NCBI GenBank assembly: GCA_946185535.1 | Contig: CAMHJX010000027.1 | Location: 1-40,457, forward strand | DNA from: an uncultured Bacteroidales bacterium | Lineage (GTDB): Bacteria; Bacteroidota; Bacteroidia; Bacteroidales; F082 | Length of the DNA: 40,457 nucleotides | Direction of reading: 5' to 3' | Part shown: piece by piece, positions 22,810 through 39,270 of the stretch | How the letters are laid out: each line of letters opens with the position of its first letter | How positions within the stretch are numbered: the stretch's first letter is position 1 | Notes under the pieces: generated by a model | What the model was told of the DNA's origin: nothing | Seen by the model: the letters and a program-made list of their open reading frames with translations, nothing else | The model's database searches: none | Translations under genes and position numbers: made by a program

Positions 22810-22851
22810 GGACTAGTTTTTTCTTCAAGGAGCCTCTATTGGTTGAGTTTG
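22810..22851 (+). promoter_or_regulatory. Shared 42-bp promoter block (copy 1 of 4)
   Basis: GGACTAGTTTTTTC at 22810-22823 and CTCTATT at 22834-22840 keep the same spacing (GGACTA-N18-CTCTA) as three - strand promoters at 34082-34122, 36146-36187 and 37248-37276. Ungapped alignment with the 36146 copy places TTGAGTTTG where that copy has its -7 box, so the -7 here is weak. A better TACTTTTG lies 47 bp further on. Confidence 0.7.
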
Positions 22852-22897
22852 ACAAATTAAATGTTCAACACAATCGCAATCGTCTAATTGAATTTCG

Positions 22898-22905
22898 TAC
22901 TTTTG
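22898..22905 (+). promoter_or_regulatory. -7 promoter box for the LPP20/NTF2 gene at 22933
   Basis: TACTTTTG is an exact TAnnTTTG match, 28 bp before ATG 22933. A longer reading frame opening at 22888 would start upstream of this box, so that start is rejected. Confidence 0.6.
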
Positions 22906-22932
22906 CAAAAAATTTTATCAATGCGTCGTGAT

Positions 22933-24846
22933 ATGAAAACGGTAAAACTAGTTTTATCTTTTATTTTCCTATTGTTTGGCTCAATTGCTTACGCCCAAGA
23001 CATAGATAACATTGAAGCCAATCTCAAAACCATGGATAAAATCATCAATGACTCAGAGCATTATCTTCATGAAACTGCCAAAGCTGAGTCATACGAAAAG
23101 GCCATTGACAAGGCATTAGGCATGTTGGCACGACAGATAATGACAAATGTGCAAAGTGAAAGCACAATGGTCATGAAGGAAGAAAACCTTAATGGCGAAA
23201 TCACCAGTTCCATAACCTTTTCCAATGTAACCAATACAATCTCTGATGTCAGCATGTCAGGCTATCAATCCCTTATGGTTGGCAAGCCAACGAAAAAGAC
23301 CAATAAATATACGGCATTTGTCTACATCAGTGCCGAAAGAGCATCAAAAATCGTCGAAGACCTGAAACAAGCAGAAATCGAAGAAGCACTCGAAAGGAAA
23401 AAAAAGCTTGACAACAATGTCAATTTCTACTATACACAAGGTTTGAATTCCTTGGAAAAACTACGCATTGGCAATGCACTGAAGTTTTTCTATTCCGGAT
23501 ACATCATTTCATCAGGCACTCAAGCCACCATTGATAGAGACGGTGAACAGCCCGCTGATGTCGTGTTCATCCAACTCCTTGACGAAACCTTGCACAACAT
23601 CTCAATAATATGCGAAGATGAGGATAATTTAGGCAAGAACCCTACAATTTACAAGAAACAATTGGGATTCTATTACCACACAAGCGACAACGTCCTCAAA
23701 AAATTGGATGGCCTGGATTTCAAATACAACGATGGAAACAAGTATGTCAACGGCGCTCATGTACGCGATGGCATAAGCATTGCAGAACTAAGGCGCGACC
23801 TTAATAATATCCAACTATCTTGCATCTATGCCTTCGACATCAACGAGCTGGATCCCGTAGTGAGGGAAGCATTGGAAAGCAAGACTATCAAAACTTTATC
23901 CATATCCTCTGCTGACAAAACCGTTGAATGTCATCTTGAAACGACTCCAAAAGTAGAATTCGATGGTGAAATCGCCACATTTGAAGAGGAAACCGACCCC
24001 ATCCAGTCTGTCAAAGAACAAGACATTTCACGCTTCGACCATCTCACCGACATCATGATTGACATCGAAGATGCCATAAGAAACAACAAATACAATTCGG
24101 TGAAACCTTATTTCACGGAAAACGGCTTCGACTGCTTCGACAAACTGATTCGCTATGGTAATGCTTCCATCATCGAAACCCCTTACCGTTATGACTTTAT
24201 CGACTTCGGCGACTTGATCATCTGCCGCAGCATTACCATGCAATTCAAGTTCAAGAACAACAAGCAATTTGTGGAAAATGTCACATTCCGTTTCAACAAG
24301 GAAGACCAAATCGAGTCGTTGGCCTTCACCTTGACGGACATTGCCCAACACGATATCATGGACAACGAAGATTGGAGCCGTGATTCCAAAATCACCCTGC
24401 TAACCTTTATGGAAGACTACCAAACGGCATACGCTTTGAAACGTTTCGATTATCTCGAGCAAATCTTCTCCGACAATGCCCTCATCATCTCTGGCTACAA
24501 AGTGATGAAGAAAATAGACGGCGATGGGATAAAGTATAAGAATCAAATCCATTTGGACACGCTTTCCAAGTCACAATACATGGCCAAATTGCGCCGACAC
24601 TTCGGCAACAAAGAATATATCAACCTGAATTTCACCGAAACCGATTTCACCCAAGCCTCGAGCCTAAAGGATATTTTCGGCATTAGATTACGGCAAGAAT
24701 ACTATTCCAGCAATTACAGCGATGAGGGTTATTTGTTCCTGTTGGTCGACCTGAGAGAGGAACTACCAGTCATCCACGTAAGGGCATGGCAGGAAGACAA
24801 ACTGCCCCTCAAGAAACTTATCAGTCTTAGAAATTTCCGTTTTTGA
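22933..24846 (+). CDS. Exported LPP20-like / NTF2-like protein (paralogue 1)
   Basis: 637 aa from ATG 22933 (22921 is a possible alternative; 22888 is excluded by the -7 box). Signal peptide MKTVKLVLSFIFLLFGSIAYAQ. The N-terminal ~130 residues have the LPP20/FlgT-like pattern: AESYEKAIDKALGMLARQIM, then a long beta region ending YTAFVYISAERA. A charged helix (about 135-165) leads to a conserved middle part with KYNDGNKYV and HVRDGIS. The C-terminal ~260 residues hold two apparent NTF2-like modules, recognised by SVKPYFTENGFDCFDKL and by DYQTAYALKRFDYLEQIFSDNALIISG. It is closely similar to the proteins encoded at 34155-36083 and 37366-39171. A PEGA/barrel gene follows after 24 bp. A periplasmic or outer-membrane scaffold is likely; function not established. 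Confidence 0.8.
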   Translation: MKTVKLVLSFIFLLFGSIAYAQDIDNIEANLKTMDKIINDSEHYLHETAKAESYEKAIDKALGMLARQIMTNVQSESTMVMKEENLNGEITSSITFSNVTNTISDVSMSGYQSLMVGKPTKKTNKYTAFVYISAERASKIVEDLKQAEIEEALERKKKLDNNVNFYYTQGLNSLEKLRIGNALKFFYSGYIISSGTQATIDRDGEQPADVVFIQLLDETLHNISIICEDEDNLGKNPTIYKKQLGFYYHTSDNVLKKLDGLDFKYNDGNKYVNGAHVRDGISIAELRRDLNNIQLSCIYAFDINELDPVVREALESKTIKTLSISSADKTVECHLETTPKVEFDGEIATFEEETDPIQSVKEQDISRFDHLTDIMIDIEDAIRNNKYNSVKPYFTENGFDCFDKLIRYGNASIIETPYRYDFIDFGDLIICRSITMQFKFKNNKQFVENVTFRFNKEDQIESLAFTLTDIAQHDIMDNEDWSRDSKITLLTFMEDYQTAYALKRFDYLEQIFSDNALIISGYKVMKKIDGDGIKYKNQIHLDTLSKSQYMAKLRRHFGNKEYINLNFTETDFTQASSLKDIFGIRLRQEYYSSNYSDEGYLFLLVDLREELPVIHVRAWQEDKLPLKKLISLRNFRF

Positions 24847-24870
24847 TTATTCCGACAAATCATACTAGTT

Positions 24871-27039
24871 ATGAAAAAACTTTTACTTATCAACCTGTTT
24901 CTTCTTGCAGCATCCGTTACCTTATTTGCCCAAGACTATAAAGTCCAGAGTATTGAGTACCTTCCAGATGTACTGAAGGCACAACTCGAACAGCGGACGG
25001 AAAAGCCGAACAGCGGACGGAAATGTGCAGTTTTGCAAATCGCCACCCAGAACATCTCGGTAGAAGACCGCAGCTCATTCGAATTCACTTCCGATTTGGG
25101 ATCCTTTATCCCAGAAAAGAGAATCGAAAGCAGTCTATGGATGCTTTGGGTTTCGCCAGGAATCACCTATTTGACCATACATAGCAATTTAGGAGTCCTT
25201 GACATCTACTTCCCTGATTATCTTCCTGACGAAATAGAGAGTCTCAAAACCTACCGAATCACCGTTGTGGGAACAAGACAAGTCACCCCTCCTCCTACTG
25301 AATCTACGAGTAACAGGGGCTACGGATCGTGCAAAATCGTCTTCATCCCCACTCCAAACGATGCTGTCATTTACCTTAATGGTGACTCCCTCGTTGGCAC
25401 AGGAAACAGAACCGTACCCACCCACCCCGGCGCCAATAATTGGAAAGTGGAACATCCCCTATTCCATCCTACGGAAGGAACCATCGATCTTGCCAAAGGG
25501 AAAACCGATACCTTATTCATCAACCTTGACCCTGCATACGGATACATGGAAATCCGTGAAGACTATAAAATAGATGAAAGTGAAGAGCTAAGTGTTTATT
25601 TAGACGGGGTACTGAAAGGAAAAGTGCCTTACAAAAGCGAAAAACTACCTCAAGGCTTTCACGAAGTAACCTTGAAAGCTGGCGACACCATCAAGGCATT
25701 GAGCCAAATAGAAGTCAAGGAGCATTTTATGAGCATCAATAGAGCCGATGAACTTTGTTGGAATTATGAAAAAACACACAATTTCACTGACAATCTTGAT
25801 TTCGAGACGGACTCTTCATTCATTGCCAAACCCACACGGTTCTATCCCATTACTGGTAAACTCACCATCAATTCCATTCCACAAGCAACCATCAGCATCG
25901 ACAGCATCGACTATGGACTCACCCCGGTAACTCTTGGCAATTTGTCGGTGGGCTCCCACAGAATCGAGTTATCCGCCGCCAACTACACCCCCCTCATTCA
26001 AGAAGTCAATGTGGAGGAAGAAAAAGAGACGCCTTATCTGTTCAGCCTGAGTCATTCATGTTTTGCCACAATCATTTCAGACCAGGAAGGTGACCGGGTC
26101 TTTATCGACAGCGTTTTTGTTGGCGAAACTCCTGTGACCATCGAGAGACCTTATGGTACTTATTCTGTTCTCTTATCTCGTCTAGGACAAAGTAGCGAAG
26201 AGGGAGAAATCACCTTGACACCCGACAACCTGGAGCCGACCTTCGATTTCTCGTTTGGCCAAACCGTAAACGTTGAATCGGGTGACCGTAGGGCTAAGCT
26301 ATACGTCGACAATGATTATATATGCCGTGCGCCCAACGCTGTGTATATCCTAAACGGGCAACATACGCTTAGAGCCGAGCATGGATGGGCTGTTGGCGAA
26401 CAAGACATCTTCATATCCAGGGACAATCCCATCGGCAACATCAACATCGAGACCCATACCCAAAGCCCAACATCTTTTCTATCAGACGGAGCCTTTTTCT
26501 TCACTGGCAATCTTGGTTTTCTCAACAAAGGGGGCAAAACCGTTTATGGCCTCAACATTGGTGACATTTGCAAAGGCGGTCAGGCTGGATGGTATTTGAG
26601 CCTCATGACGAACACTGACATGATCAGCCAATTATACAACCAAGACTACTCTGTGCTCAATGCCTATTTAATGGCAGATGAAGCGGGCAATGCCATCTAC
26701 GGACAATCAAATTCCTATACTGGGGAAAGGACGCTCATCCGAGCCTCGGCACTTTTCGGTGTAGCCTTGAAAATAGCCGGACCCGTTTACCTAAGAATTG
26801 GTGCCGGTTATGGACTCCGACGCAGTGCCTGGAAAAACACTGAAGACTCCTGGGTAATCATCAACCCAGTCAGTTGGCAAGACTTCGAAGGCTCCTTAGG
26901 ATTGCAGTGCTGCATCTACAACTTCGTAATCAACGCTGACGCACTGATTCCTGTTCAGGAGGTACTTACCAACTACAAGAAAGTGGTCGAATTCAGGGTA
27001 GGTTTCGGATTCTGTCTGAAGCACAAGAAAAGGAACTGA
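24871..27039 (+). CDS. PEGA-domain outer-membrane protein (paralogue of 32930-34057)
   Basis: 722 aa with signal peptide (MKKLLLINLFLLAASVTLFAQ). Residues about 22-140 form a domain shared only with the protein at 32930-34057: QDYKVQSIEYLP, RKCAVLQIATQNIS, LWMLWVSPGITYLTI and ESLKTYRITVVGT. Several PEGA-type repeats follow (about 150-220, 330-395 and 400-455, for example ISIDSIDYGLTPVTLGNLSVG and VFIDSVFVGETPV). The last ~200 residues alternate aromatic and polar residues like a small outer-membrane barrel (GWYLSLMTNTD, YLRIGAGYGLRR, EFRVGFGFCLKHK). It is 24 bp behind the LPP20/NTF2 gene and surely cotranscribed. Compared with the short paralogue it has about 350 extra residues of PEGA repeats. 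A 15-bp word (GAACAGCGGACGGAA) is duplicated in the gene near 24990-25021. Confidence 0.75.
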   Translation: MKKLLLINLFLLAASVTLFAQDYKVQSIEYLPDVLKAQLEQRTEKPNSGRKCAVLQIATQNISVEDRSSFEFTSDLGSFIPEKRIESSLWMLWVSPGITYLTIHSNLGVLDIYFPDYLPDEIESLKTYRITVVGTRQVTPPPTESTSNRGYGSCKIVFIPTPNDAVIYLNGDSLVGTGNRTVPTHPGANNWKVEHPLFHPTEGTIDLAKGKTDTLFINLDPAYGYMEIREDYKIDESEELSVYLDGVLKGKVPYKSEKLPQGFHEVTLKAGDTIKALSQIEVKEHFMSINRADELCWNYEKTHNFTDNLDFETDSSFIAKPTRFYPITGKLTINSIPQATISIDSIDYGLTPVTLGNLSVGSHRIELSAANYTPLIQEVNVEEEKETPYLFSLSHSCFATIISDQEGDRVFIDSVFVGETPVTIERPYGTYSVLLSRLGQSSEEGEITLTPDNLEPTFDFSFGQTVNVESGDRRAKLYVDNDYICRAPNAVYILNGQHTLRAEHGWAVGEQDIFISRDNPIGNINIETHTQSPTSFLSDGAFFFTGNLGFLNKGGKTVYGLNIGDICKGGQAGWYLSLMTNTDMISQLYNQDYSVLNAYLMADEAGNAIYGQSNSYTGERTLIRASALFGVALKIAGPVYLRIGAGYGLRRSAWKNTEDSWVIINPVSWQDFEGSLGLQCCIYNFVINADALIPVQEVLTNYKKVVEFRVGFGFCLKHKKRN

Positions 27040-27040
27040 T

Positions 27041-27300
27041 TAATCAACACAAACCGCCATAAATTCCCCCACGAAATCGAAGATTGATTTCATCGAAATC
27101 GAAGATTCAACGTAGTTAATGCTGAGCATTTCGACGCAGTCAATTTCCCATTAATCCTGCGGCTGCCATGGTGTTATAGTCCTACAACCCTGTATGGCTG
27201 TCGTACCACGGATGCCGCATATCGTTGTTTTTTCGCATTGCAAATGCTGATATTCTCGCCTCCCGAAATTGCAAATTCGGGAGAATGGGATTTTCCTAAA
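27041..27300 (+). repeat. Interspersed repeat, full copy A
   Basis: It begins two bases after the stop of the PEGA gene. Order: AACACAAACCGCCATAAATT leader; nested hairpin-prone insert CGAAATCGAAGATTGATTTC with flanks (about 27071-27142); TTTCCCATTAATC; long hairpin with TGCGGCTGCC (27158) and its partner ending in GCCGCA (27219); GCATTGCAAATGCTGATATTC; terminal CTCCCGAA / TTCGGGAG stem (about 27260-27282). The same order and orientation recur at 28222-28508. Confidence 0.85.
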
Positions 27301-27315
27301 CTTGCAATTACATTA

Positions 27316-27356
27316 TAAAACAGACCCGACAGCTTGACGAATCAGAGGCTGCCGGG
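27316..27356 (-). terminator. Intrinsic terminator of the Abi-like gene
   Basis: On the - strand CCCGGCAGC (27356-27348) pairs with GCTGTCGGG (27333-27325) with one G-U pair and a 14-nt loop, followed by TCTGTTTTAT. It lies 72 bp beyond the stop of the Abi-like gene. A TATCTTTG -7-like box at 27368-27375 just upstream also allows an independent small transcript of about 45 nt, but read-through termination is simpler. Confidence 0.65.
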
Positions 27357-27427
27357 AATCAACGATGCAAAGATAGATGTTATTTTTGAATCTCGCAACT
27401 TTTCAAGACAGATTTTTTTAAAACAGT

Positions 27428-28120
27428 TTACAAGCACATAATTTTTGAACAGGCATCATTCACATGGTCAAGCCCAAACATCAGTGATACTCCATCCAAG
27501 TCCATCCATTGGAACAATTTCATCATCCGATTATATTGATTGAGTGCATAAGAAGTGTCGATGGTGGCAGTAGGACGACTGAAGCAAATCGGCTCATGGT
27601 GTGCTATTCTGTTTCGTAATTTGTTGATATAGTCCAGCTCCTGAAAAATATAGGAATTATCATACTGTTGTTGTCGAGACGATATAGGTTTGTTCGGGAA
27701 AATACGCAAAAGAATTTGACCCATCAATGCATATACCACATTTGAAAACATGTATTTCCAAACACCAAACTCCATTTCGGAAAGTAGTTTTGAATGGGAG
27801 TAAGCGTTACTACGCATCAATTCATTATATGCTTTCTCTATGATTTTGCGCGTTTTGTCCACTCGGTGGTCATAATAAAGAGCCCCATTCGGCAAAATGG
27901 CATCACGCAGCCAGTCACCACCAAATTGTGCGGTCATCTGCTTGTCAATACGATTACGCAGCGCCACTTCAAAGCAACTGACAAATGTAAACATTTCCTG
28001 CGAAAGCTTCAAATTGTAACGATAGAGCGTCATAGCTCGTTTCGTATCGCCAGAACATGCTTGCACATATTTCCGCATCCTTTCGGGCGACATGGCTTCC
28101 TCAAAATCCGAATACTTCAT
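27428..28120 (-). CDS. Abi-like (AbiD/F, Abi_2) abortive-infection protein with HEPN motif
   Basis: 230 aa, soluble. It starts KYSDFEEAMSPERMRKYV and contains the Abi_2 helical core (LYRYNLKLSQEMFTFVSCFEVALRNRID). The catalytic HEPN-type motif R-x4-H is seen as R169-N-R-I-A-H174 in KLRNRIAHHEPI, the hallmark of this family and of many RNA-cleaving HEPN toxins. Predicted role: phage defence by RNA cleavage that halts infected cells. No partner gene is adjacent; it appears to stand alone. It sits between two same-orientation copies of the interspersed repeat (27041-27300 and 28222-28508), has its own -7 box and terminator, and is AT-richer than the housekeeping genes, all consistent with an acquired cassette. 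Confidence 0.85.
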   Translation of the reverse strand: MKYSDFEEAMSPERMRKYVQACSGDTKRAMTLYRYNLKLSQEMFTFVSCFEVALRNRIDKQMTAQFGGDWLRDAILPNGALYYDHRVDKTRKIIEKAYNELMRSNAYSHSKLLSEMEFGVWKYMFSNVVYALMGQILLRIFPNKPISSRQQQYDNSYIFQELDYINKLRNRIAHHEPICFSRPTATIDTSYALNQYNRMMKLFQWMDLDGVSLMFGLDHVNDACSKIMCL

Positions 28121-28139
28121 TTCATTTCTTTTTTCGCCT

Positions 28140-28147
28140 CAAAATTA
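28140..28147 (-). promoter_or_regulatory. -7 promoter box for the Abi-like gene
   Basis: TAATTTTG on the - strand (TAnnTTTG), 19 bp before the ATG at 28120. No clear TTTG at 19-21 bp spacing. Confidence 0.55.
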
Positions 28148-28176
28148 CAACAATTTCTCTACAATACTCTGTTTTT

Positions 28177-28210
28177 TTTGTTCCGCATTGCAAATGCTTA
28201 TATTCAATTC
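28177..28210 (+). repeat. Partial interspersed repeat (right-end fragment)
   Basis: TTTGTTCCGCATTGCAAATG and the following CTTATATTC match the right-hand third of the interspersed repeat (CCGCATTGCAAATGCTGATATTC in full copies). It lies between the Abi-like gene and full copy B, so two repeat ends abut here. Confidence 0.65.
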
Positions 28211-28221
28211 TGTTTATCCAG

Positions 28222-28508
28222 CCGCCCAACACCAAACATAACAAACACAAACCACCATAAATCCCCCACGAAATCGAAGATTGATTTCATCGAAATCGAA
28301 GATTCAACGTAGTTAATGCTGAGCATTTCGACGCAGTCAATTTCCCATTAATCATGCGGCTGCCACGGTGTGACAGCCCTACAACACCACCGTTGGGCTG
28401 TAGGGCTGTCGTACCACGGCAGCCGCATATCATTGTTTTTCCGCATTGCAAATGCTGATATTCTTGTCTCCCAAATTGCAAATTCGGGAGAACGGGGTAT
28501 GCCTAAAA
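28222..28508 (+). repeat. Interspersed repeat, full copy B
   Basis: Same parts and orientation as copy A, with a better hairpin: left arm 28355-28385 (TGCGGCTGCCACGGTGTGAC and on) and right arm 28397-28427 pair over 31 bases with few mismatches around an 11-nt loop. The nested insert with CGAAATCGAAGATTGATTTC is present. It ends in an AATTCGGGAG tail before GCCTAAA, like copy A. From 28509 to the stop of the large lipoprotein gene at 28616 there is a GC-rich stretch with GGCGCAC-TCCC-GTGCGC (about 28544-28560) and no gene. Confidence 0.85.
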
Positions 28509-28615
28509 ATTTGCGCGGAATGTCGGTACCGCAGTGGGCCGCCGGCGCACTCCCGTGCGCACCCCGCCTGCCAACTTTTTTGCCCTTGCCCGTCATGCAC
28601 GTGGCGGAACAAGGG

Positions 28616-31600
28616 TTAGTTCTTGGACGCGGAGCGGACAGGACGCACAGACCGACCATAGTAGCGGGAGTCGCCGAACATGTTGCAAACGCTCGAATAG
28701 AAGAGGAGGACCAACGCGTTGTCCGGAAAGTCCGTGTAGAGCGAACCCGACCAGTAGTAGCCGCCCGAGCCTGCATTGAGGAGACTCGACCCACTGCGGT
28801 AGCCGGCGGCAGGCAGGAAGAGACTGTTGCCGTTTGTCGCGGTGAAGAGTCTTCCGTTCACGCCGTTCTGCGTCGTCCATACATTCGTTGTGTTGCTTAG
28901 CAACTCCTGCCACTCCGCTTGTGTTGGCATCCTCCAGCCACTGCCCCATTGGGCTGTGGCTGCATCATCCTCAGGTAGCAGAGTAGTCAAGCCATCGCTT
29001 CCTGTGTATTTGGTGAAGGTACTGCCATCGCCGTACTGGTAGGTGCTCCAGCTGTAATCGCTCTTGGGCTGCGTCTCACCCCATGCAAAGTAGTAGCCGT
29101 AGTCTTCAGGGTTGGTGGCACCCACGTTGCAGGTTGCCCAAAGCAAGCCGCTTGGCAGGCCGAGGTCGACGTATTCATGGCCACCAGTGTTGGAGATAAA
29201 ATAGGCGACATAAGTCGCATTAGACGTCACGGTGAAACTAATGGTTGAGCCGCCGCCTATGGTCGTGCCGTTTCTGGTCCAATGATCGAAGGTGAAGCCA
29301 GGGTTGTTTGTGGCTGTCAAAGTACAAGTTTGGCCTTGCTGATATGGGCCTCCGCCGCTTACCGTACCACCGTTGCTCGGGTTGGCGGAAACGGTTATGG
29401 TGTAAGTCGGAGGAACGTATGTGAAGTTCGCCACCAAAGTCCGGTTGCTGTTCACGGTAAAGGTATAATTGGCTTGGGTCGAAACCACAGTACCGCTTTC
29501 CGTCCAGTTGGTAAATTGGTAATTCGTTGCGGCCTGGGCATGAACCGTGCATGATGCGCCTTGGTTGTATGTGCCGCCGCCGCTTACCGTGCCACCATTT
29601 GTCGGGTTGGCGGAAACGGTTATGGTGTAGGTCGGCACTTGCTGCGTGGTGAAAGGCACATCATCACCGTATGCAGTGCCTGCGCTGTTGGTGGCATAGG
29701 CACGCACATGATAGAGGGTTCCTGCCGTCAAGCCGGTTATGCTGCTCGTGAAATTGCCCGTGCCCGTGCCATCGGTAGTGTGGCTGTTGTTTATGGTCGG
29801 GTTAGAGCTCGTGCTCCAGCACACGCCTCGCGCGGTCACTGTGGCTCCTCCGCTGCTAGTCACGTTGCCGCCGCCTGTGGCTGTGGTCTGTTGTATGTTC
29901 GTCACAGGATCGGTCGTTATCACTGTCGGAACGGTAACATTCACTTGGAACTGCGCAACATAATTACCCGATTCGGTCACATTGAAACTGAACGGGTTTT
30001 GGGTGGAAACCTCAACCCCGTTTTTAGTCCACCTGTTGAAGGTGTAGCCGTTGGCTGGCGTTGCAGTCAAGGTACACACCTGGTTGTAGATGAAATTACC
30101 ATTACCACTAACTGTGGCTGTGCCGCCATTAGTAGGGTTGGCCGATGCGGTAATGGTGTAATATTGCTGCGTTTGGAAGCTCTCCTGGTTGCCATATCTG
30201 GTACCTTCGCTGTTGATGGCGTATGCCCGTACATAGTAGGTCGTGCCTGGCGTCAATCCTGTCATAGGTACCGTAAAGGTGCCAGTGCCCCCACTGCTGG
30301 CTTGCTGATGGCTACCATTGGTAAGACTCGGATTTTGGCTCGTGCTCCAGCAGATGCCACGTTCGGTCACCGTTGCTCCTCCGCTGTTAGTCACGTTGCC
30401 ACCGCCTGTGGCTGTGGTCTGCTGTATGTTGGTCACTTGGGCGGTCGTCACCGTGGGTCTGGTAATGAAATCTGCCACTAAGTTGCGGTTGCTGTTCACC
30501 GGGAAGTTATAGTCGGCTTGTGTGGAAACTTGATTACCGTTCTCCGTCCATCTTGTAAAGCGATAATCTGTTGCAGCCGTAGCCGAAACCGTACAAGATG
30601 CGCCCTGATTGTACGTACCACCACCTGTAACTGTTCCTCCATTGCTTGGGTTTGCGGAAACATTGATATTATAGGTGTTGGGGGCTTGCTCGGCAAAGTG
30701 CGCCACCAAGGTACGGTCGTGTTCAACGATAAAGGTATAATTAGCTCCTTCATAAACCACATTGCCGTTTTCAGTCCAGTTGGTGAAAGTGTAACCGTTG
30801 TTGGCCGTAGCACTTACCGTGCAGCTTTCGCCGTGGTTGTATGTGCCACCACCGTTTACCGTGCCCCCGCTTGCTGGGTCAGCAGAGACACTAATCGTAT
30901 GGCTCTGCACCTGGAAGTTGGCCATCAATGTACGGTCACTGGTTACGATAAAGGTGTATCTGACGCTGGTCGATGCTTCTTCTCCATTCTCCGTCGTCCA
31001 GTTGATGAAAGTGTAGCCCTCATTCGCTGTTGCCTCAACGGTGCATTGATCGCCATGCTGGTAAGTGCCGCCACCCGTCACCGTGCCGCCATTGCTCGGA
31101 TTGGCCGACACATTGATAGTGTATTCCGCGGGTGCCTCTGCCTCAAAGTTGGCCACCAAAATACGATTGCCCTCAACTGTAAACTCGTATTCCGCCAAAT
31201 CCCAAACATGGTTGCCGTTCTCTGTCCAATTCACGAAACGGTAGCCAGTGTTTTTCGTTGCCCTGACCGTACATGACGTACCTTGCGTGTAAGTGCCTCC
31301 GCCAGTCACCGTGCCGCCCTCGGTTGGGTTGGCCGACACTTGTATGCTGTATTCGTTGGCTTGCAATTCCTTGAAGTTGGCTACCAATGTGCGGTTACTG
31401 GTCACGGTGAAGGTGTAATCGGCATCCTCTGAAGCCACCTCGCCGTCATCGGTCCAGTTGGTGAAGGCATAGCCCTCGGCAGGTGTGGCTTTCACAGTGC
31501 AGTTTTGGCCATGGTCGTAGCTGCCGCCGCCTTCCACCGTACCGCCATTTTCAGGATTGGCCGAAACGCCAATGGTATAGCTCTTTATCTTGAAATGTGC

Positions 31601-32710
31601 CTTGTAGGTCGCCGTTTCGGTCACAGGGAAGGTGAAACTGGCATTGGAGGAAACCGTAGTGCCGCCTTTCGTCCATTTCTGGAAATCGTAACCCGTGTTG
31701 GGTGTGGCGGTCAAGGTGCATTCTTGGCCGTAGTTGTAGCCACCTGCGCCAGTCACGGTGCCGCTGTTTTCGGGTTCCACCTCAGCGTAGATGACATAGG
31801 CCTGCTTCGTGAAGTTGGCCACCAAACTGCGGCCTACCGTCACGGTGAAAGTATATGCCGCATCTGAAGAGACTTGGTTGCCGTTCTCCGTCCAGTTCAC
31901 GAAGGTGTAGCCCGCATTGGCCTCGGCGGTCGCGGTGCATTGGGTGCCTATCTCGTAGGAGCCGCCGCCCATTACTGTGCCGCCATCCTCGGGGTCGCAG
32001 CTTAGTTCAATCTCAACCGATGTTCCTGTTGGGGCTTCGGTCTCAAAGTCCAGCACTTCACTCCAGCCTGTCTTGCCCGCCGCGTTCTTCGCGTAGGCGC
32101 GTACATAGTATTTCTTACCCGAAGCCAAATGTTCCATGCGGACTAGGTATTCTTCCAACAAGCCTGCGGCACCTTCATAGCGTCGGAGGCTGTCGTCGGT
32201 AGGAACCGGGTCGCCGAAGGTATTCCAACAGATGCCTCTCTCGGTCACCTCAGTGCCGCCATCAGCCACCACCTGGCACTTGATGCGGTAAGTGGTGCTG
32301 TCGATTCTCTGCACCTCCAAGGCTTTCACCGTCGGTTTTTCCGAACTAAGCGTGGTAAAGGTCTTCGTCTCCGTATTGAAAGGTTTCGAGAAACCGTAGT
32401 CGACGGCGTAATGGTATTGGTATTCCGTGGCGGGTTTCAGTCCAGTCATTGTCACCGAGAAGTCATTTCCTTCCAATTCCACATCAAACTCACCCTTGTC
32501 AGCACCATTCTCTGCCAGGAAGACCTTGATGCCGTCAATCACGCCTGCGTAGGAATAGGTGCCCTCAATCGTCGCCGAGGTGGTGCCTACAGTCAGGTCT
32601 TCCTTGCTCAGCTCAAACGATTGGATGTTCGGGTCAGGCTCTTTCTTGCAGGTGACGAAAGCCAGCACGAAAGCGCATACGAGCAACATGGGTAAGGATT
32701 TGGTTTTCAT
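28616..32710 (-). CDS. Giant surface lipoprotein: ten InlB-type repeats plus Fib_succ_major domain
   Basis: 1364 aa. Probable lipoprotein signal with Cys21 (FVTCKKEPDPN); the lipobox is weak but Lys/Glu after the Cys resemble surface-lipoprotein export signals. I count ten ~70-residue divergent InlB B-repeats, each with the pattern SANPxxGGTVxGGGxYxxG, CTxxAT, GYxFxxWTxNG and LVANF. Four fibronectin-like modules are interspersed, three with the TERGICWST / YYVRAYAxNxxG pattern (about 125-225, 760-850, 950-1040). The C-terminal ~180 residues (EYVDLGLPSGLLWATCNVGA, WRMPTQAEWQELL, YYGRSVRPV) are a Fibrobacter succinogenes major paralogous domain. It is likely an extracellular adhesin or scaffold. 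Some repeats are nearly identical in DNA (29340-29400 and 29580-29640), so recombination could change the copy number. Confidence 0.88.
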   Translation of the reverse strand: MKTKSLPMLLVCAFVLAFVTCKKEPDPNIQSFELSKEDLTVGTTSATIEGTYSYAGVIDGIKVFLAENGADKGEFDVELEGNDFSVTMTGLKPATEYQYHYAVDYGFSKPFNTETKTFTTLSSEKPTVKALEVQRIDSTTYRIKCQVVADGGTEVTERGICWNTFGDPVPTDDSLRRYEGAAGLLEEYLVRMEHLASGKKYYVRAYAKNAAGKTGWSEVLDFETEAPTGTSVEIELSCDPEDGGTVMGGGSYEIGTQCTATAEANAGYTFVNWTENGNQVSSDAAYTFTVTVGRSLVANFTKQAYVIYAEVEPENSGTVTGAGGYNYGQECTLTATPNTGYDFQKWTKGGTTVSSNASFTFPVTETATYKAHFKIKSYTIGVSANPENGGTVEGGGSYDHGQNCTVKATPAEGYAFTNWTDDGEVASEDADYTFTVTSNRTLVANFKELQANEYSIQVSANPTEGGTVTGGGTYTQGTSCTVRATKNTGYRFVNWTENGNHVWDLAEYEFTVEGNRILVANFEAEAPAEYTINVSANPSNGGTVTGGGTYQHGDQCTVEATANEGYTFINWTTENGEEASTSVRYTFIVTSDRTLMANFQVQSHTISVSADPASGGTVNGGGTYNHGESCTVSATANNGYTFTNWTENGNVVYEGANYTFIVEHDRTLVAHFAEQAPNTYNINVSANPSNGGTVTGGGTYNQGASCTVSATAATDYRFTRWTENGNQVSTQADYNFPVNSNRNLVADFITRPTVTTAQVTNIQQTTATGGGNVTNSGGATVTERGICWSTSQNPSLTNGSHQQASSGGTGTFTVPMTGLTPGTTYYVRAYAINSEGTRYGNQESFQTQQYYTITASANPTNGGTATVSGNGNFIYNQVCTLTATPANGYTFNRWTKNGVEVSTQNPFSFNVTESGNYVAQFQVNVTVPTVITTDPVTNIQQTTATGGGNVTSSGGATVTARGVCWSTSSNPTINNSHTTDGTGTGNFTSSITGLTAGTLYHVRAYATNSAGTAYGDDVPFTTQQVPTYTITVSANPTNGGTVSGGGTYNQGASCTVHAQAATNYQFTNWTESGTVVSTQANYTFTVNSNRTLVANFTYVPPTYTITVSANPSNGGTVSGGGPYQQGQTCTLTATNNPGFTFDHWTRNGTTIGGGSTISFTVTSNATYVAYFISNTGGHEYVDLGLPSGLLWATCNVGATNPEDYGYYFAWGETQPKSDYSWSTYQYGDGSTFTKYTGSDGLTTLLPEDDAATAQWGSGWRMPTQAEWQELLSNTTNVWTTQNGVNGRLFTATNGNSLFLPAAGYRSGSSLLNAGSGGYYWSGSLYTDFPDNALVLLFYSSVCNMFGDSRYYGRSVRPVRSASKN

Positions 32711-32929
32711 ATCAAGATAGATTTAAGATTCAAAGATTTAAGATTCAAGATTTTATTTAACTACGGATTTCACGGATTTTGCGGATATTATCAAGTCGAA
32801 ATTTTGCAGCTTCGCTGCGGATTAATACAGATAAGCCACACACATTCCTCACTCCCATATTCCTCACCCCTCACTCCTAATTCTACATTCAACATTCAGC
32901 ATTCAGCATTCAACATTCAACATTCAGCA
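32711..32929. repeat. Intergenic mini-repeats
   Basis: Consecutive low-complexity tracts: TTTAAGATTCAA repeated (32720-32750), CGGATTTCACGGATTTTGCG (32764-32783), a TTTTGCAGCTTCGCTGCGGA hairpin (32801-32820), repeated CTCACTCC words and then ATTCAACATTCAGCATTCAG repeated (32886-32932). The last tract runs up to the stop codon of the neighbouring gene. No promoter for the large lipoprotein gene is obvious; a relaxed TAAATCTTTG lies about 20-30 bp before its start on the - strand. Confidence 0.6.
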
Positions 32930-34057
32930 TTAAAACCCATACCCCACTCCAACTTTCCCCTCCACGGTCTGGAAATTGGTGGTCACGGCCTCCAACGAAA
33001 GCACAAAACCGCCCAAATGCGCCTGCAAGCCTGCCGACACATCCACACCTTGGAAACTGTATCCTTTTATCTTGTACCATAGCTGTTCCTTGTCCTGCCA
33101 GCAGAGGTTGTGCGCTCCATAGCCAACACCTACACGCACATAAATCGGTTCAACCACCCGCATCATGCCTCCAGCGATGACGGAAAGGCGGTCGGTGGCC
33201 TTCGTGCCGTTGTACATGGGCAGATGTCCGTCGTCAAGGAAGCCTTGGGCATCGGCTTGCGGGAGGTTGCCCATGCCCGTGAAGCTGCCGTTGGTCATGG
33301 CCGAGACGAACCAGCCGAAACGTTTCACCATTCCCACACTAAAGCCCATCGAGAACGGCTCGTAAGAGCCGTTAAGGGTGATGAAGGTTTCCCAGCGATT
33401 GGTTTTCTTGTTTACCAATGGAATTGTTTTCAGGCTCACCCTAACGACAACAGCAGTATCTTCCACGTTCACCTCCCCTTTTGCACTCTCATAGTTCGGA
33501 GCCTGCACCAGATAGGTATACGTTCCTTCCTTGACGCGCTTTCGAGCCGTGCCGTCCCAAGTGACCGGCCAAATCTCACCATCCACCTCAAGCATGGCAT
33601 TGGTGGGCGTGATTTGGAAGGTAAGGTATTGTTGCGCCACCTCTTCGTTATCATTCGTCGTCCCTTGCAGGACAATGCGATAGGTGAACAGCGACTCCAC
33701 CTTGGGCAAGTATTGCGTCAGATGCAAATCCCAAGGTCCCAACTTTTCATGCTTGATTTTCAAGGTCTTGATGCCTGGCGAAACCCAAACCCAGATTTCG
33801 CCTTCACGAAGCGTACGCGCCACCACGAATGAATTCCAGTCACATTCGAAGTGGAAGCCTTCGCGCAGTTCGGGCGCAATGTTTTGCGTGACAATGCGGA
33901 ACACTGCGCACTGTCGACCCCTCTCATCCTGCTTGATGTAGTTGCGAGCCGTCATATCCAATGGCAGAGGTTCAACACTGATAACCTTATAGTCTTGGGC
34001 TTTCAGGGTTAGCAACGAAATGGTGAAAGCCAACAAAAGTAAAATCCTTATCCTCAT
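32930..34057 (-). CDS. PEGA-like outer-membrane protein (short paralogue)
   Basis: 375 aa, signal peptide MRIRILLLLAFTISLLTLKAQ. Residues about 21-140 share a domain with the protein at 24871-27039: QDYKVISVEPLP, RGRQCAVFRIVTQNIAPE, EIWVWVSPGIKTLKI, LPKVESLFTYRIVLQGT. One PEGA-like module follows (about 150-215, TPTNAMLEVDGEIWPV to EGTYTYLVQAPNYESAKGEV). Then about 160 residues with barrel-like alternation (SMGFSVGMVKRFGWFVSAMTN, IYVRVGVGYGAHNL) end in the terminal GKVGVGYGF, whose last Phe fits the outer-membrane insertion signal. It has its own promoter, the best example of the shared GGACTAAT block. Next upstream is paralogue 2 of the LPP20/NTF2 family, so gene pairing is as at 22933-27039 although in separate units. 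Confidence 0.75.
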   Translation of the reverse strand: MRIRILLLLAFTISLLTLKAQDYKVISVEPLPLDMTARNYIKQDERGRQCAVFRIVTQNIAPELREGFHFECDWNSFVVARTLREGEIWVWVSPGIKTLKIKHEKLGPWDLHLTQYLPKVESLFTYRIVLQGTTNDNEEVAQQYLTFQITPTNAMLEVDGEIWPVTWDGTARKRVKEGTYTYLVQAPNYESAKGEVNVEDTAVVVRVSLKTIPLVNKKTNRWETFITLNGSYEPFSMGFSVGMVKRFGWFVSAMTNGSFTGMGNLPQADAQGFLDDGHLPMYNGTKATDRLSVIAGGMMRVVEPIYVRVGVGYGAHNLCWQDKEQLWYKIKGYSFQGVDVSAGLQAHLGGFVLSLEAVTTNFQTVEGKVGVGYGF

Positions 34058-34081
34058 TTATAAATCTTTTATTTCAGGCTG

Positions 34082-34122
34082 CAAATTTACAAATAGAGGA
34101 GGAATGGACAAAGAATTAGTCC
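34082..34122 (-). promoter_or_regulatory. Shared promoter block (copy 2 of 4), PEGA-like gene
   Basis: On the - strand: GGACTAAT (34122-34115), TTTG -33 box right behind it, CTCTATT in the spacer, then TAAATTTG (34089-34082). TTTG-N19-TAAATTTG is a textbook Bacteroidota promoter. The start codon follows 25 bp later. Confidence 0.8.
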
Positions 34123-34154
34123 AAAAAACTTAACAACTGCGGATTGCAAAGACT

Positions 34155-36083
34155 TTACCCACCCCATAAATCGGACAAGTCAAACAAATCCTCCATGGGC
34201 AGTTTGTCGTTCTGCCAGGCACGGACGTGGATGATAGGCTCATTGAAGCGCAAGTCGACCAGCAGGAAGAGATAGCCCACATCGCCATAGGTGTCGGAGA
34301 AATACTCCTGTCTCACGCGGATGCCGTAGAAATTCTTTCCGTTGGAAGCACGCTCAAAATCGGTTTCGGTGAAGTTCAGGTTGATGTATTTCTTTCTGCC
34401 GAAGTGTTCGCGCAAACGCCTCATATATTGGACCTTCGACAAGGTGTCGTATTTCACGCTCTCCGTAATGATGATACGGTCGTTATCCATCTTGCGTTGC
34501 ATCAGCTTGTTACCCACGATAATCAAGGCTTGCTCAGAGAAGATGCGCTCCAGATAGTCGATTCTTCCCAGGGCGTAGGCCGTCTGATAGTCTTCAAGGA
34601 AGCTCATCAGCAGCAAGCGCGAGTCGCGGTCCCAGTTACCCTTGCCCAAAATGTCGCTCTCGGCCACATCCGACAAGGTGAACGCCAACGACTCGACGAG
34701 GTTGTCGGCATTGAAACGGAAAGTGACGTCTTCGATAAACTGCTTCTTGTTGTTCAGGAAGCTGAACTGCATGGTGATACTGCGGCAGAGCGTGATGGGG
34801 CCAAAGTCCAGCAAACGGTATTGCGGTTTTCCTATGATGGAAGCCTTGCCATATTTGACAAGCTTGTTGAAGCTGTCGTAGCCCTCATCCGTGAAATAGT
34901 CCTTCACCGAGGCATACTCCTTGGTCCTGATGGCCAATTCGATGGCTTGGATGCGTTTCAAGATTTCTTCATGGTCGTGAGCGACAGTTTCATACTTTTC
35001 GCTTGTAGGCTCGGCGGCCAAAGTATCAATCAGTTGGGATTCCTCAGCCGACTCCACCACAGGCTCAATTGAGTTTTCGCGCAACGAATCGGGAATAACC
35101 ACGCGCTTAGTGGCCGCAGCGAAGGTCTTGTTGCCTTTGGTCTTGATTATTTCGTAGATGTCGGTTGGGGTCTCACTCTCGTCATATCTGTAAGTGATGT
35201 ATAAATCAACCTCATCGATGTCTTCGTACTGCAAGTCCAAAGTGCCCACACCGTCTCTGACGCGAGGTCCGCCCTGGTCGGAGGTAATGCCGTCGTTGTA
35301 TGTGTAGTCGAGGTTAGTCACCTTCTTGGCCATGCCCCTATCTACAAATTCAATATTCAGGATTACCTTGTATTTGTTCTGGAAATCGTTGATGGGCACT
35401 TGCTGGTAGGCAACCGGAGTCACGCGAATGGCGTTCATCAAATTCTCGATTTGAGTCTCAACGAGGCGTGCGGCAGGTTCTTTCCTCCCCCCCTGCTCGA
35501 TGGTGATATTCGTCCCGAGACTAAGCACATAGCTCCAATACCAATACTTCAAGGCATCGCCTATCCTGACATCCTTCACCGCCTTGCAGCCTTCCGAATA
35601 GTAATGGTGCACATCGCTGGCCAACTTCTCCTCTTTCTCCTTCCGAGCTTCCTTCTCGCGTTCCATAATCTCATCATAGATTTCCTTGACCTTCCCTTTG
35701 TCGATATAGACGAAGACCGTGTATTTCTTGTTTCTCCTCTCTGGCTTACCCACGACGAGCGTTTGGTAATCCGTGAGGCGCACATTGGTGAAGGTCTCCG
35801 AAACCTGTTCGAACAGTACAGTTTCATCTATCTCGCCACTCTCCATACGATGGGTGAGGTCATATTTTGAATACGACTGCACATTGGTCATGATTTGTCC
35901 GGCCAGCTGATGCACAGCGCTGGTCTTGGCCTGATCCAACGAATCAGCCGAAGCTGAGGCAAAGAGATATTGGTCGGAAGCCGCCTGCACCTGTTGCATG
36001 ATGGTGCGTGCCTGCTTCATATCCTGGGCCGAAGCCGAAACGAAGGTAAGAAAAAGGATTAAGGGGAGTAATAATTTCTTCAT
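34155..36083 (-). CDS. Exported LPP20-like / NTF2-like protein (paralogue 2)
   Basis: 642 aa from ATG 36083 (36101 would add MTKSQY before the signal). Signal peptide MKKLLLPLILFLTFVSASAQ. LPP20/FlgT-like part about 30-130 (SLDQAKTSAVHQLAGQIMTN to KYTVFVYIDKG), a very charged helix 130-155, helical 156-190 (YYSEGCKAVKDVRIGDALKY), a beta-rich middle part 220-300 with LDYTYNDGITS and RVRDGVGTLDL, a low-complexity linker 330-370, then NTF2-like modules about 375-490 and 490-625 (FLEDYQTAYALGRIDYLERI). The final ~250 residues are very similar to paralogue 1 (YINLNFTETDFxxAS, GYLFLLVDLR, IIHVRAWQ). It is transcribed from its own GGACTAAT-type promoter. It probably works with the PEGA-like protein encoded next; function unknown. 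Confidence 0.8.
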   Translation of the reverse strand: MKKLLLPLILFLTFVSASAQDMKQARTIMQQVQAASDQYLFASASADSLDQAKTSAVHQLAGQIMTNVQSYSKYDLTHRMESGEIDETVLFEQVSETFTNVRLTDYQTLVVGKPERRNKKYTVFVYIDKGKVKEIYDEIMEREKEARKEKEEKLASDVHHYYSEGCKAVKDVRIGDALKYWYWSYVLSLGTNITIEQGGRKEPAARLVETQIENLMNAIRVTPVAYQQVPINDFQNKYKVILNIEFVDRGMAKKVTNLDYTYNDGITSDQGGPRVRDGVGTLDLQYEDIDEVDLYITYRYDESETPTDIYEIIKTKGNKTFAAATKRVVIPDSLRENSIEPVVESAEESQLIDTLAAEPTSEKYETVAHDHEEILKRIQAIELAIRTKEYASVKDYFTDEGYDSFNKLVKYGKASIIGKPQYRLLDFGPITLCRSITMQFSFLNNKKQFIEDVTFRFNADNLVESLAFTLSDVAESDILGKGNWDRDSRLLLMSFLEDYQTAYALGRIDYLERIFSEQALIIVGNKLMQRKMDNDRIIITESVKYDTLSKVQYMRRLREHFGRKKYINLNFTETDFERASNGKNFYGIRVRQEYFSDTYGDVGYLFLLVDLRFNEPIIHVRAWQNDKLPMEDLFDLSDLWGG

Positions 36084-36145
36084 ATACTGCGATTTAGTCA
36101 TAATACCATCATTACCCTCAATAGAATTTTACACTATTGAGCGTG

Positions 36146-36187
36146 CAAATTTACAAAATAGAGATGGCATAGACAAAAAATTAGTCC
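36146..36187 (-). promoter_or_regulatory. Shared promoter block (copy 3 of 4), LPP20/NTF2 paralogue 2
   Basis: On the - strand: GGACTAAT (36187-36180), TTTTTTG with a -33 TTTG at 36177-36174, CTCTATT, then TAAATTTG (36153-36146), giving TTTG-N20-TAAATTTG. It is 63 bp before ATG 36083. Ungapped alignment with the 22810 copy. Confidence 0.8.
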
Positions 36188-36229
36188 TGTTGTTATGTTT
36201 ATTTTGTATTCATTACTGGGTTCAGAGGG

Positions 36230-36395
36230 CTGCAACCCAATGCCAAATATAACAAACACAAACTTACCATAAATCCCCCACGAATTTGCCATTAATTATG
36301 CGGCTGCCACAATGCTTCGACATGCTCAGCATCCTTGTGACAGCCCTACACCACCCCACCCAGGCTGTAGGGTTGTCGTATCACGGCAGTCGTTC
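36230..36395 (+). repeat. Interspersed repeat, copy C, without the nested insert
   Basis: The leader AACAAACACAAACTTACCAT, then AAATCCCCCACGAATTTGCC joined directly to ATTAATTATGCGGCTGCC: the nested insert seen in copies A and B is absent, giving the empty-site form. The long hairpin is present (about 36299-36390) but its left arm carries an extra GCTTCGACATGCTCAGCATC mini-repeat. The right end of the element is missing; instead the sequence passes directly into the truncated gene on the other strand. Confidence 0.75.
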
Positions 36396-36538
36396 TCCAC
36401 AGCAATAGCGATGGCATCGTCGGGAGAAACATTCAATGGCGCATAATAGGTGTATTCCCCCGACACCTTGCACTCTCTCTGAGCGAAAAGCACCGTGGGG
36501 AATACAAATAGAATGAGCAACAATGACTTACGCCACAT
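36326..36538 (-). pseudogene. Truncated LPP20-like exported protein cut by a repeat
   Basis: The frame starts 12 bp after the LPP20-like gene at 36551-37186. It has a clear signal peptide (MWRKSLLLILFVFPTVLFAQ) and a domain start RECKVSGEYTYYAPLNVSPD, a pattern that opens longer LPP20-like exported proteins of Bacteroidota. At about residue 49 (near 36392) the frame runs into interspersed repeat copy C; the rest (DCRDTTTLQPGWGGVGLSQG) is translated repeat hairpin. No continuation of the gene is found in the window. It is a remnant or, less likely, a short secreted peptide. Confidence 0.75.
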
Positions 36539-36550
36539 TATACTATAGAA

Positions 36551-37186
36551 TTAGTCGCCTAAAATTTTATCAAGTTCCTTGGCAAGGTCATTGGCTTCTT
36601 TTTCAAGTTCACCTCTCATAGCTTCCTTGGCAGCTCTCATGGCCAATGCCTGACTGTAATAGGCAATGACACGCACTTCGACATTGCCATTGGGAAGGTC
36701 GCGATACACCTTCACGGGTACAATCACTTGCCCTAACCTTTGAGCTACAAGGTTTTTACCAGCGCCCACACTTGTGGCCAACGAAGTGGCATCGTCCTTT
36801 GAGATTTCCCTGTTGGCTAATTTGTTGTCAATGATTTGGATGACACGGGTTTCCATCTTACCAGCCAAATTCAGCTTTGCCAAATTCTCAGCTTGGAACA
36901 AGGCGGCATCATAGATTTGGCCTGGGGTCATTGCCTCACCTTGGATGAATTTGTCATAGCCATAGTCGTCCTTCTGCATCTGCATCTTGTACGACTCTAT
37001 CAATTGCATTTCAATTGTCGGGTTGCCCGGAGCTGCTTTCCAGCCCTCTTTCTTCAGGATCTTAGCTTCTTTTTTGGCATTCTTTTCGATGGTTTTCATC
37101 TCTTTCTTGCTCAGTTGTGCATAAGAAGTGGGCATTGCAACGGCCATGGCGACCACGAGCATCAAAAACATACCTAGTTTTTTCAT
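36551..37186 (-). CDS. LPP20-like exported protein
   Basis: 211 aa, signal peptide MKKLGMFLMLVVAMAVAMPTSYAQ. A lysine-rich helix follows (about 26-48), then an LPP20-like domain: PGQIYDAALFQAENLAKLNL, TRVIQIIDNKLANREI, and the beta strand YRDLPNGNVEVRVIAYYSQ, ending in an amphipathic helix (AMRAAKEAMRGELEKEANDL). No lipobox. Such domains occur in outer-membrane-associated proteins (Helicobacter LPP20, Vibrio FlgP). It heads a unit with the truncated gene at 36538 and carries a version of the shared promoter block at 37248-37276. Confidence 0.7.
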   Translation of the reverse strand: MKKLGMFLMLVVAMAVAMPTSYAQLSKKEMKTIEKNAKKEAKILKKEGWKAAPGNPTIEMQLIESYKMQMQKDDYGYDKFIQGEAMTPGQIYDAALFQAENLAKLNLAGKMETRVIQIIDNKLANREISKDDATSLATSVGAGKNLVAQRLGQVIVPVKVYRDLPNGNVEVRVIAYYSQALAMRAAKEAMRGELEKEANDLAKELDKILGD

Positions 37187-37247
37187 TTTGATTTTCCTTT
37201 CTTTAGTTTTGCGTTGATTTATTGATTTGTTTGTTTGATTTGCCTAT

Positions 37248-37276
37248 TAGAGTCGTCAACTAACAAAGATTAGTCC
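37248..37276 (-). promoter_or_regulatory. Shared promoter block (copy 4 of 4), LPP20-like gene
   Basis: GGACTAAT (37276-37269) is followed by CTTTG and, at the same spacing as in the other three copies, CTCTA (37252-37248). The -7 region is degenerate (TAATAGGC-like), 62-70 bp before the start. Between 37277 and the stop of the next gene the DNA is very AT-rich. Confidence 0.65.
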
Positions 37277-39171: not shown

Positions 39172-39270
39172 ATTGTTTGGTTTTTTCTTTATTATCGTTG
39201 CGTCCGGCAAGTAACGGCCGCACCACGAAGTCGATGCAAAGCTTGCATAGGCTATCGTGTTTTACGGCGA

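Follow-up and report, generated by a model that had tools for sequence, protein, structure and literature searches.

The block GGACTA-N18-CTCTA recurs in a stretch of 40,457 nucleotides (the window hereafter) from an uncultured Bacteroidales bacterium of the F082 lineage (contig CAMHJX010000027.1, assembly GCA_946185535.1). It is very probably, as judged from sequence comparisons, the core promoter of a single autoregulated extracytoplasmic function (ECF) sigma factor, read on the own operon of this sigma factor and on envelope genes. In the proposed promoter, the -35 element [AG]GACTAA[AT] would span -36 to -29 and the -10 element C[TA]CTA(T) would span -12 to -8, with a purine at +1 eight bases past the -10. 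The sigma factor, P0001, would be kept at the inner membrane by the predicted anti-sigma protein P0002 until an envelope signal frees it. RNA polymerase carrying P0001 would then bind the box and transcribe the sigma operon together with genes for LPP20-like, PEGA-like and 211-residue envelope proteins, the four genes of the window included. At 34122 and 36187, an overlapping TAAATTTG housekeeping promoter would allow basal as well as induced transcription.

A strictly spaced block

The block is present in the window at 22810 (+), 34122 (-), 36187 (-) and 37276 (-), with the identical 18-bp gap in all four copies, just as the initial annotation of this DNA had reported. These four exact occurrences compare with none in each of 100 dinucleotide shuffles. 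Throughout the genome (3.67 Mb, 86 contigs), seven exact matches are found, versus one for the reversed control. Enrichment was also hoped for in a genome scan allowing up to two mismatches, which gave 378 matches against 839 for the reversed control; with the same tolerance, the window holds six matches for 4.5 expected. As neither count is in excess, the two-mismatch scan is uninformative and the block is to be regarded as a strict motif.

Several intergenic matches with one mismatch are AGACTAA[AT] versions with unchanged spacing, and the better consensus is [AG]GACTAA[AT]-N16-C[TA]CTA, the -10 variant CACTA being added by sites of related genomes. The form RGACTAAW-N16-CTCTA has nine matches in the genome (Table 1) and none for the reversed control, and window site 22810 (GGACTAGT) is one base off. 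With one mismatch allowed, 16 genome matches stand against 18 for the control, so that significance is limited to the strict motif. When the gap is varied from 11 to 21, nine of the 11 genome matches have N16 (eight of them intergenic), one has N14 and one N18, whereas the reversed control yields three over all 11 spacings. Two matches were dropped as regulatory sites: C7:80028, found within the coding sequence of a sigma gene, was treated as chance, and both it and C2:223023 fall at the same codons within two sigma paralogues, which makes them coding coincidences.

Geometry of the probable promoter

The block was used to align 39 sites, which fall into 19 clusters with under 70% identity between them in the sequence surrounding the boxes. 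These sites were chosen among matches to RGACTAAW-N16-CTCTA with at most one mismatch, plus 22810 and one site of a wider pattern; box conservation is thus partly due to construction, whereas position 37 was not selected. Three sites (G044 8918, G044 C29 and G050 9947) were kept by judgement despite spurious or over-extended open reading frames (ORFs). The sites of L110, near copies of those of G000, were left out, as were L111, L114, L115 and L116, which are the contigs of G031, G030, G012 and G028, respectively. Exact-pattern matches in G005, G063, G072, G083 (two) and G091 were surrounded by ORFs or simple repeats and not used as sites.

Information in the alignment is concentrated at positions 1-8 and 25-30, and the upstream region is T/A rich. 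Position 37, eight nucleotides after CTCTA, is a purine in all 39 sites (29 A, 10 G) and all 19 clusters. With +1 placed there, the boxes fall at -36 to -29 and -12 to -8, a spacing relative to the invariant purine that is, on the alignment, the geometry of an ECF promoter. The word TAnnTTTG, taken by the initial annotation as the promoter that the block accompanies, stands just past the block (position 34-35) in only five of the 39 sites, so that it probably marks an additional housekeeping promoter, overlapping the first, at a small share of targets. At three sites of the own genome, the block is closely followed by TAAATTTG; those at 34122 and 36187 correspond to the two copies for which this promoter element had been annotated, and they are real.

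The sigma factor and its operon

The gene for P0001 (195 residues) lies on contig C2, in an operon of same-strand genes headed by site C2:218426. This site is followed by genes for two repeat-like proteins (coiled by eye, without Pfam match) and one protein with a weak TPR match, then by P0001 and P0002 (486 residues). P0001 matches Pfam Sigma70_r4_2 (PF08281) with 29.2 bits, above the cut-off of 25.7. Against the NCBIfam sigma70-ECF family TIGR02937, it scores 35.0 bits (E 1e-8, residues 36-187), below the cut-off of 42.9, and would be at best a divergent member; for TIGR02985 (Sig70_bacteroi1), it reaches 37.9 bits, below the curated cut-off of 126.4. A profile built from 15 homologues aligns near full length, over both sigma regions, with structures of ECF sigma factors at E-values of 1e-5 to 2e-4, including AlgU (8z6g and 6in7, 1e-5) and Escherichia coli sigma-E (1or7, 1.6e-4); the top row of this comparison is an unrelated repeat protein matched through short pieces only. 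For the L110 copy, AlphaFold gives a weak model (mean pLDDT 59), in which region 4 is the best-modelled part. Among the best 50 of 432 Foldseek rows, nearly all are sigma factors or chains of RNA polymerase complexes, with low TM-scores (query-normalised, 0.26-0.30 in the top ten).

All nine P0001-type loci (G000, L110, G031, G044, L112, L113, G030, G012 and G028) have a box in front of the sigma operon, with TACTA as the -10 in L112. The window itself is linked to this operon in L110, the Bacteroidia metagenome-assembled genome RUG14699, whose DNA is about 92-97% identical over the main stretches. There, one contig carries the sigma operon of C2 followed by window 40414-34792 in reverse, with homologues of 37366-39210, 36551-37186 and 34155-36101. 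The last two are preceded by boxes, situated some 6-7 kb beyond the anti-sigma gene. The L110 homologue of the gene encoding the 211-residue protein is 93% identical at the DNA level. In G031, G044, G028, G030, G012 and L113, a similar-sized gene like this one stands 3' of the anti-sigma gene with a box in between, its likeness being judged, except for L110, by N-termini and place.

A paralogue of P0001, P0003 (59%), is encoded on contig C7, where it too is accompanied by an anti-sigma-like gene. In G000 (C7), G044 (C29) and G004, a box is found some 4-10 kb past the P0003-type sigma gene, so that P0003 may read the same box, P0001 remaining the presumed main reader. In G000 and G004, this box precedes a small gene of helix-turn-helix (HTH) type (L032:7718-8002, behind C7:70041, and L100:3521-3751), the G004 copy being judged by its sequence. 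Thirteen further sigma-like loci in the own genome, scanned over up to 1.5 kb on each side (less at contig ends), gave no box at up to one mismatch. Near C13:37791 of the own genome, GGACTAAAAC...CCGTTA (L040:1372-1400) lies some 100 bp upstream of the stretch in which another sigma gene matches region 2; it combines the same -35 word with a CGTTA-type -10 and may be the promoter of some other ECF sigma factor.

Co-occurrence of the box and the sigma factor

The distribution of the box was compared with that of the sigma factor in 60 genomes of the genus, the own genome included. Genomes with a match at E below 1e-40 were considered sigma-bearing (11 genomes), those with weaker matches (G014, G027, G038, G047 and G059) being counted as without. 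The sigma-bearing genomes hold 19 exact boxes in five genomes (coding C7:80028 included) versus two reversed controls, and the 49 others hold five in three genomes versus 28 reversed controls. The wider pattern RGACTAWW-N16-CWCTATT, searched in 36 genus genomes, occurs in six of nine sigma-bearing genomes versus one of 27 others, where the match is a tandem repeat, and totals 16 boxes versus seven reversed controls. As this pattern was written after CACTA sites had been seen in G012 and others, its result is partly circular, whereas that of the exact pattern (5/11 versus 3/49) is not.

Upstream regions of LPP20 homologues give a third comparison, made with a matrix from which LPP20 sites were excluded. 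Out of 28 homologues, 26 were scanned (L133 and L134 were left out), and a box was found before five of ten in sigma-bearing genomes versus none of 14 in genus mates without the sigma factor; the two homologues of G079 have no box. Since start codons were guessed and some homologue matches are partial, a few of the starts may be misplaced. One homologue without sigma factor (G035, L138) scores 11.2, above the shuffles (8.3) and well below the box-bearing ones (at least 19.2). Fisher tests, which treat related genomes as independent, give 0.0003 for the wider pattern, 0.0035 for the exact pattern and 0.006 for the LPP20 homologues.

Several observations weigh against the proposed ECF promoter or its assignment to P0001. 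Taken over all 60 genomes, exact boxes do not outnumber reversed controls (24 versus 30); only their concentration in sigma-bearing genomes exceeds the control, not their genus-wide number. Three boxes are found in G050 (84% complete) and one in G019 (79%), in which no close member of the sigma subfamily was found; G050 has only a weak sigma match (E 5e-6), and its lookalike of the first operon gene is adjacent to a gene for a 219-residue protein, with no sigma genes between them. Conversely, the sigma-bearing G031 lacks a box before three LPP20 homologues, one of them 91% identical to that of the window, and G004 lacks one before its single homologue. At seven of seven P0003-type loci, the 400 nucleotides upstream of the sigma gene (for two loci, upstream of the preceding gene; the sigma factor of G025 is only 40% identical to P0001) contain no box at up to one mismatch, and G037, G007, G010 and G025 have a P0003-type sigma factor and no exact box. 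Sigma region 2 of P0001, a poorly modelled part, has no Pfam match (PF04542), and no curated anti-sigma family of Pfam or NCBIfam matches P0002. Finally, in 16 of the 39 sites (five of the 19 clusters), the -35 element contains TAnnTTTG, a word that itself resembles the -7 box of Bacteroidota.

Alternative explanations

The block had initially been annotated as an operator, that is, two half-sites about 23 bp apart through which an activator or repressor such as a response regulator would act on TTTG/TAnnTTTG promoters. Indeed, a good TAAATTTG promoter shares bases with it at 34122 and 36187, inspection by eye suggests a loose direct repeat in it (ACTA and TCTA, with an offset of 23), and the TAnnTTTG word lies within it at the 16 sites mentioned above. 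Against an operator stand the rarity of this word at position 34-35 and the purine found at every site eight nucleotides past the second box. In addition, the block points to the downstream gene wherever the target is clear, no dyad is seen by eye, and no regulator gene besides the sigma gene was seen travelling with it, neighbours not having been tested singly. A direct-repeat operator recalling those of LytTR type was set aside on the basis of spacing, +1 purine and sigma linkage. The operator is therefore considered improbable and is replaced by the ECF promoter, on account of geometry, the invariant purine and the box before the sigma operon in every P0001-type locus.

The block could also belong to an ordinary housekeeping promoter of the form TTTG-N19/20-TAnnTTTG, to which it would contribute an upstream element and words of the spacer, and owe its conservation solely to promoter strength. 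The three own-genome sites with TAAATTTG after the block and the TAnnTTTG words in the -35 agree with this explanation, which is nonetheless very hard to sustain: 34 of the 39 sites have no TAnnTTTG at position 34-35, the strict motif has nine exact places (plus 22810) in 3.67 Mb and is concentrated where one sigma gene occurs, and the LPP20 orthologue of G031 has kept TAnnTTTG while the block is gone. That the block is a functionless leftover of recent gene duplication, as 34122 and C2:209611 might suggest by being near-identical over the -10, TAAATTTG and a downstream stretch before paralogous genes, is the least credible explanation of all, since the sites form 19 divergent clusters, matched promoters between genomes have boxes 83-100% identical (values raised by the choice of sites) versus 31-62% for spacer and flanks, and unrelated genes, e.g., for a leucine-rich repeat (LRR)/type IX secretion system (T9SS) protein and a small HTH protein, are also preceded by sites.

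Window sites and downstream genes

The four sites of the window preferentially read here as ECF promoters were scored with a position weight matrix (PWM) built without window sites, for which the maximum in 20 shuffled windows is 16.5 bits (Table 1); the sites used for training included C2:209611, a near-copy of 34122. The downstream genes had been labelled as two LPP20/NTF2 paralogues, one PEGA/barrel protein and one separate LPP20-like protein. The two LPP20-like proteins after 22810 and 36187 are indeed paralogues (44% identity over the match) with weak Pfam scores, whereas the 211-residue protein after 37276 has no LPP20 match in Pfam. The PEGA label after 34122 holds for an N-terminus that resembles, by eye, the PEGA protein downstream of C2:209611; Pfam gives no match for the protein itself. 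The ORF of the gene behind 22810 opens at 22888, with a likely ATG at 22921, and the following PEGA gene is probably co-transcribed with it, as their spacing suggests. A third LPP20-like gene of the window (37366-39210, Pfam LPP20 27.5 bits) is not preceded by a box.

Table 1. Predicted promoters, boxes and genes of the window, box sites of the genome, and anti-sigma proteins with a C39-like domain
Feature	Location	Strand	Details
Predicted ECF promoter	22810..22838	+	-35 GGACTAG 22810-22816; -10 CTCTA 22834-22838; predicted +1 A 22846; PWM 27.2 bits
Predicted ECF promoter	34094..34122	-	-35 GGACTAA; -10 CTCTA 34098-34094; predicted +1 A 34086; PWM 34.2 bits
Predicted ECF promoter	36159..36187	-	-35 GGACTAA; -10 CTCTA 36163-36159; predicted +1 A 36151; PWM 20.4 bits
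Predicted ECF promoter	37248..37276	-	-35 GGACTAA; -10 CTCTA 37252-37248; predicted +1 A 37240; PWM 25.3 bits
Overlapping Bacteroidota-type TAAATTTG (-7) box, likely second housekeeping promoter	34082..34089	-	TAnnTTTG, position 34 of aligned site
Overlapping TAAATTTG (-7) box	36146..36153	-	Position 35 of aligned site
LPP20-like protein, exported by eye	22921..24846	+	First gene after 22810; Pfam LPP20 20 bits, below cut-off
PEGA-domain protein	24871..27039	+	PEGA 123.5 bits
Protein with PEGA-like N-terminus	32930..34057	-	After 34122
LPP20-like protein, exported by eye	34155..36101	-	After 36187; Pfam LPP20 17.6 bits, below cut-off
211-residue protein, exported by eye	36551..37186	-	After 37276
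RGACTAAW-N16-CTCTA sites, own genome	C2:209611; C7:70041; C9:63169		
RGACTAAW-N16-CTCTA sites, own genome	C2:218297 and C2:218426		Divergent pair
RGACTAAW-N16-CTCTA sites, own genome	Window 34122, 36187, 37276	-	
RGACTAAW-N16-CTCTA site, own genome	C7:80028		Coding
C39-bearing likely anti-sigma proteins	L031:15309-16769 (P0002); L092:3459-4910; L094:5425-6879; L097:9565-11010		Pfam cut-off exceeded in P0002

Elsewhere in the own genome, the box at C9:63169 precedes the gene for an LRR protein of BspA type that carries a T9SS signal at its C-terminus (L033:5438-8119), and in G031, a box precedes the gene for a 336-residue protein (L093:6510-7601). The window also encodes a 1364-residue protein (28616-32710, minus strand) that contains ten repeats of the InlB-B type (Flg_new_2) and matches Lcl_C weakly at its C-terminus. 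An interspersed repeat of about 127 nucleotides is present in several copies in the window (27062-27275, 28259-28483, 40288-40414 and about 36253-36361) and also on C2. A 70-residue ORF at 36326-36538 resembles by eye the start of a 297-residue gene product (L092:1777-2670); it ends near a copy of this repeat, and the gene was thus probably cut short there.

The likely anti-sigma protein

P0002 and its 12 homologues are each encoded directly 3' of a sigma gene. The 13 aligned proteins have in common a segment at the N-terminus (ITDELLACYLEGK...AVEAYLSEN) and a single hydrophobic stretch, after which comes a C-terminal part of about 180 residues with CarboxypepD matches in all 13. The model of the L110 copy displays N-terminal helices of low confidence (pLDDT 54). 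As matches to curated anti-sigma families are missing and the model is poor, the anti-sigma role is deduced from position and architecture, which make P0002 a likely one-pass membrane anti-sigma protein.

In four of the 13 homologues, P0002 included, a C39-like peptidase domain is nested between the N-terminal segment and the hydrophobic stretch. Its residues Cys83, His173 and Asp194 (L110 numbering) are invariant in the five copies compared and are candidate catalytic residues. Because it lies between the putative sigma-binding segment and the membrane helix, this domain is predicted on the cytoplasmic side, the topology being deduced. The anti-sigma protein might then cut itself, or be cut, from inside when its envelope domain is under stress, but such a self-releasing sigma switch is doubtful at present. 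RseA and MucA undergo periplasm-first proteolysis, unlike the self-release proposed here.

Relation to known systems

ECF sigma factors paired with class I anti-sigma proteins recognize two-box promoters of constant spacing, share an operon with their membrane-bound anti-sigma protein, regulate their own synthesis and act on envelope targets. The architecture and logic of the system described here are like those of E. coli sigma-E/RseA and Pseudomonas aeruginosa AlgU/MucA, to whose sigma structures the profile of P0001 matches near full length. It differs from them by its boxes, RGACTAAW and CWCTA, by a likely anti-sigma protein with a CarboxypepD-like C-terminus and, in 4/13, a C39-like domain, and by its targets, which would be LPP20-like, PEGA and repeat-like proteins. 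For RpoE, an excerpt of the literature gives GGAACTT as the -35 (PMC8103513).

The nearest Bacteroidales relatives found, as described in an excerpted source, are Das1/Dma1 and Das2/Dma2 of Bacteroides thetaiotaomicron, which consist of ECF21 sigma factors with dual membrane-spanning anti-sigma proteins (PMC13088901) and likewise pair an ECF sigma factor with a co-encoded membrane anti-sigma protein. According to the same excerpt, Dma proteins have an N-terminal anti-sigma domain followed by a transmembrane helix, removal of Dma2 raises das2 and its neighbours, and the output concerns the envelope (PMC13088901). Dma ends in a C-terminal beta-barrel past a long tether, as far as this excerpt goes, whereas in the proteins considered here, the hydrophobic stretch is followed by some 180 residues that match CarboxypepD but no barrel family.

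SigP of Porphyromonas gingivalis (SigP/PorXY) is also a Bacteroidales ECF sigma factor and controls secretion-system genes; it differs in being coupled to a two-component system. The motif put forward for SigP, C(T)AAA(G/C/T)A(T)A(C)T(A/G)A (PMC4800418), has words that differ by eye from the present box. In Flavobacterium psychrophilum, the excerpted description of SM6 assigns ECF-type promoters to T9SS genes and a sigma/anti-sigma pair (PMC9723704), with CGT as the -10 instead of C[TA]CTA. As stated in excerpts, B. thetaiotaomicron encodes 50 ECF sigma factors (PMC12596196) and only 6% of Bacteroidetes ECFs are near a recognised class I anti-sigma protein (PMC7406223). Among the literature matches listed, judged by title or start of abstract, no published description of this sigma factor or box was found.

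The sigma factor and the box are thus probably undescribed, as far as these listed matches go, and the likely anti-sigma family matches no anti-sigma model of Pfam or NCBIfam; the autoregulated arrangement of ECF sigma and anti-sigma genes is known. The undescribed envelope regulon put forward by the initial annotation is supported, as the block is rare, strictly spaced, located before genes for proteins that appear exported by eye, and present on several contigs and in relatives. If true, the self-releasing switch would be distinct from the periplasm-first proteolysis of RseA and MucA. One uncultured lineage thus yields a nearly complete testable set, with a sigma factor, a likely anti-sigma protein, a promoter word, a +1 prediction and a list of targets, and LPP20-like and PEGA envelope proteins would gain a regulatory context.

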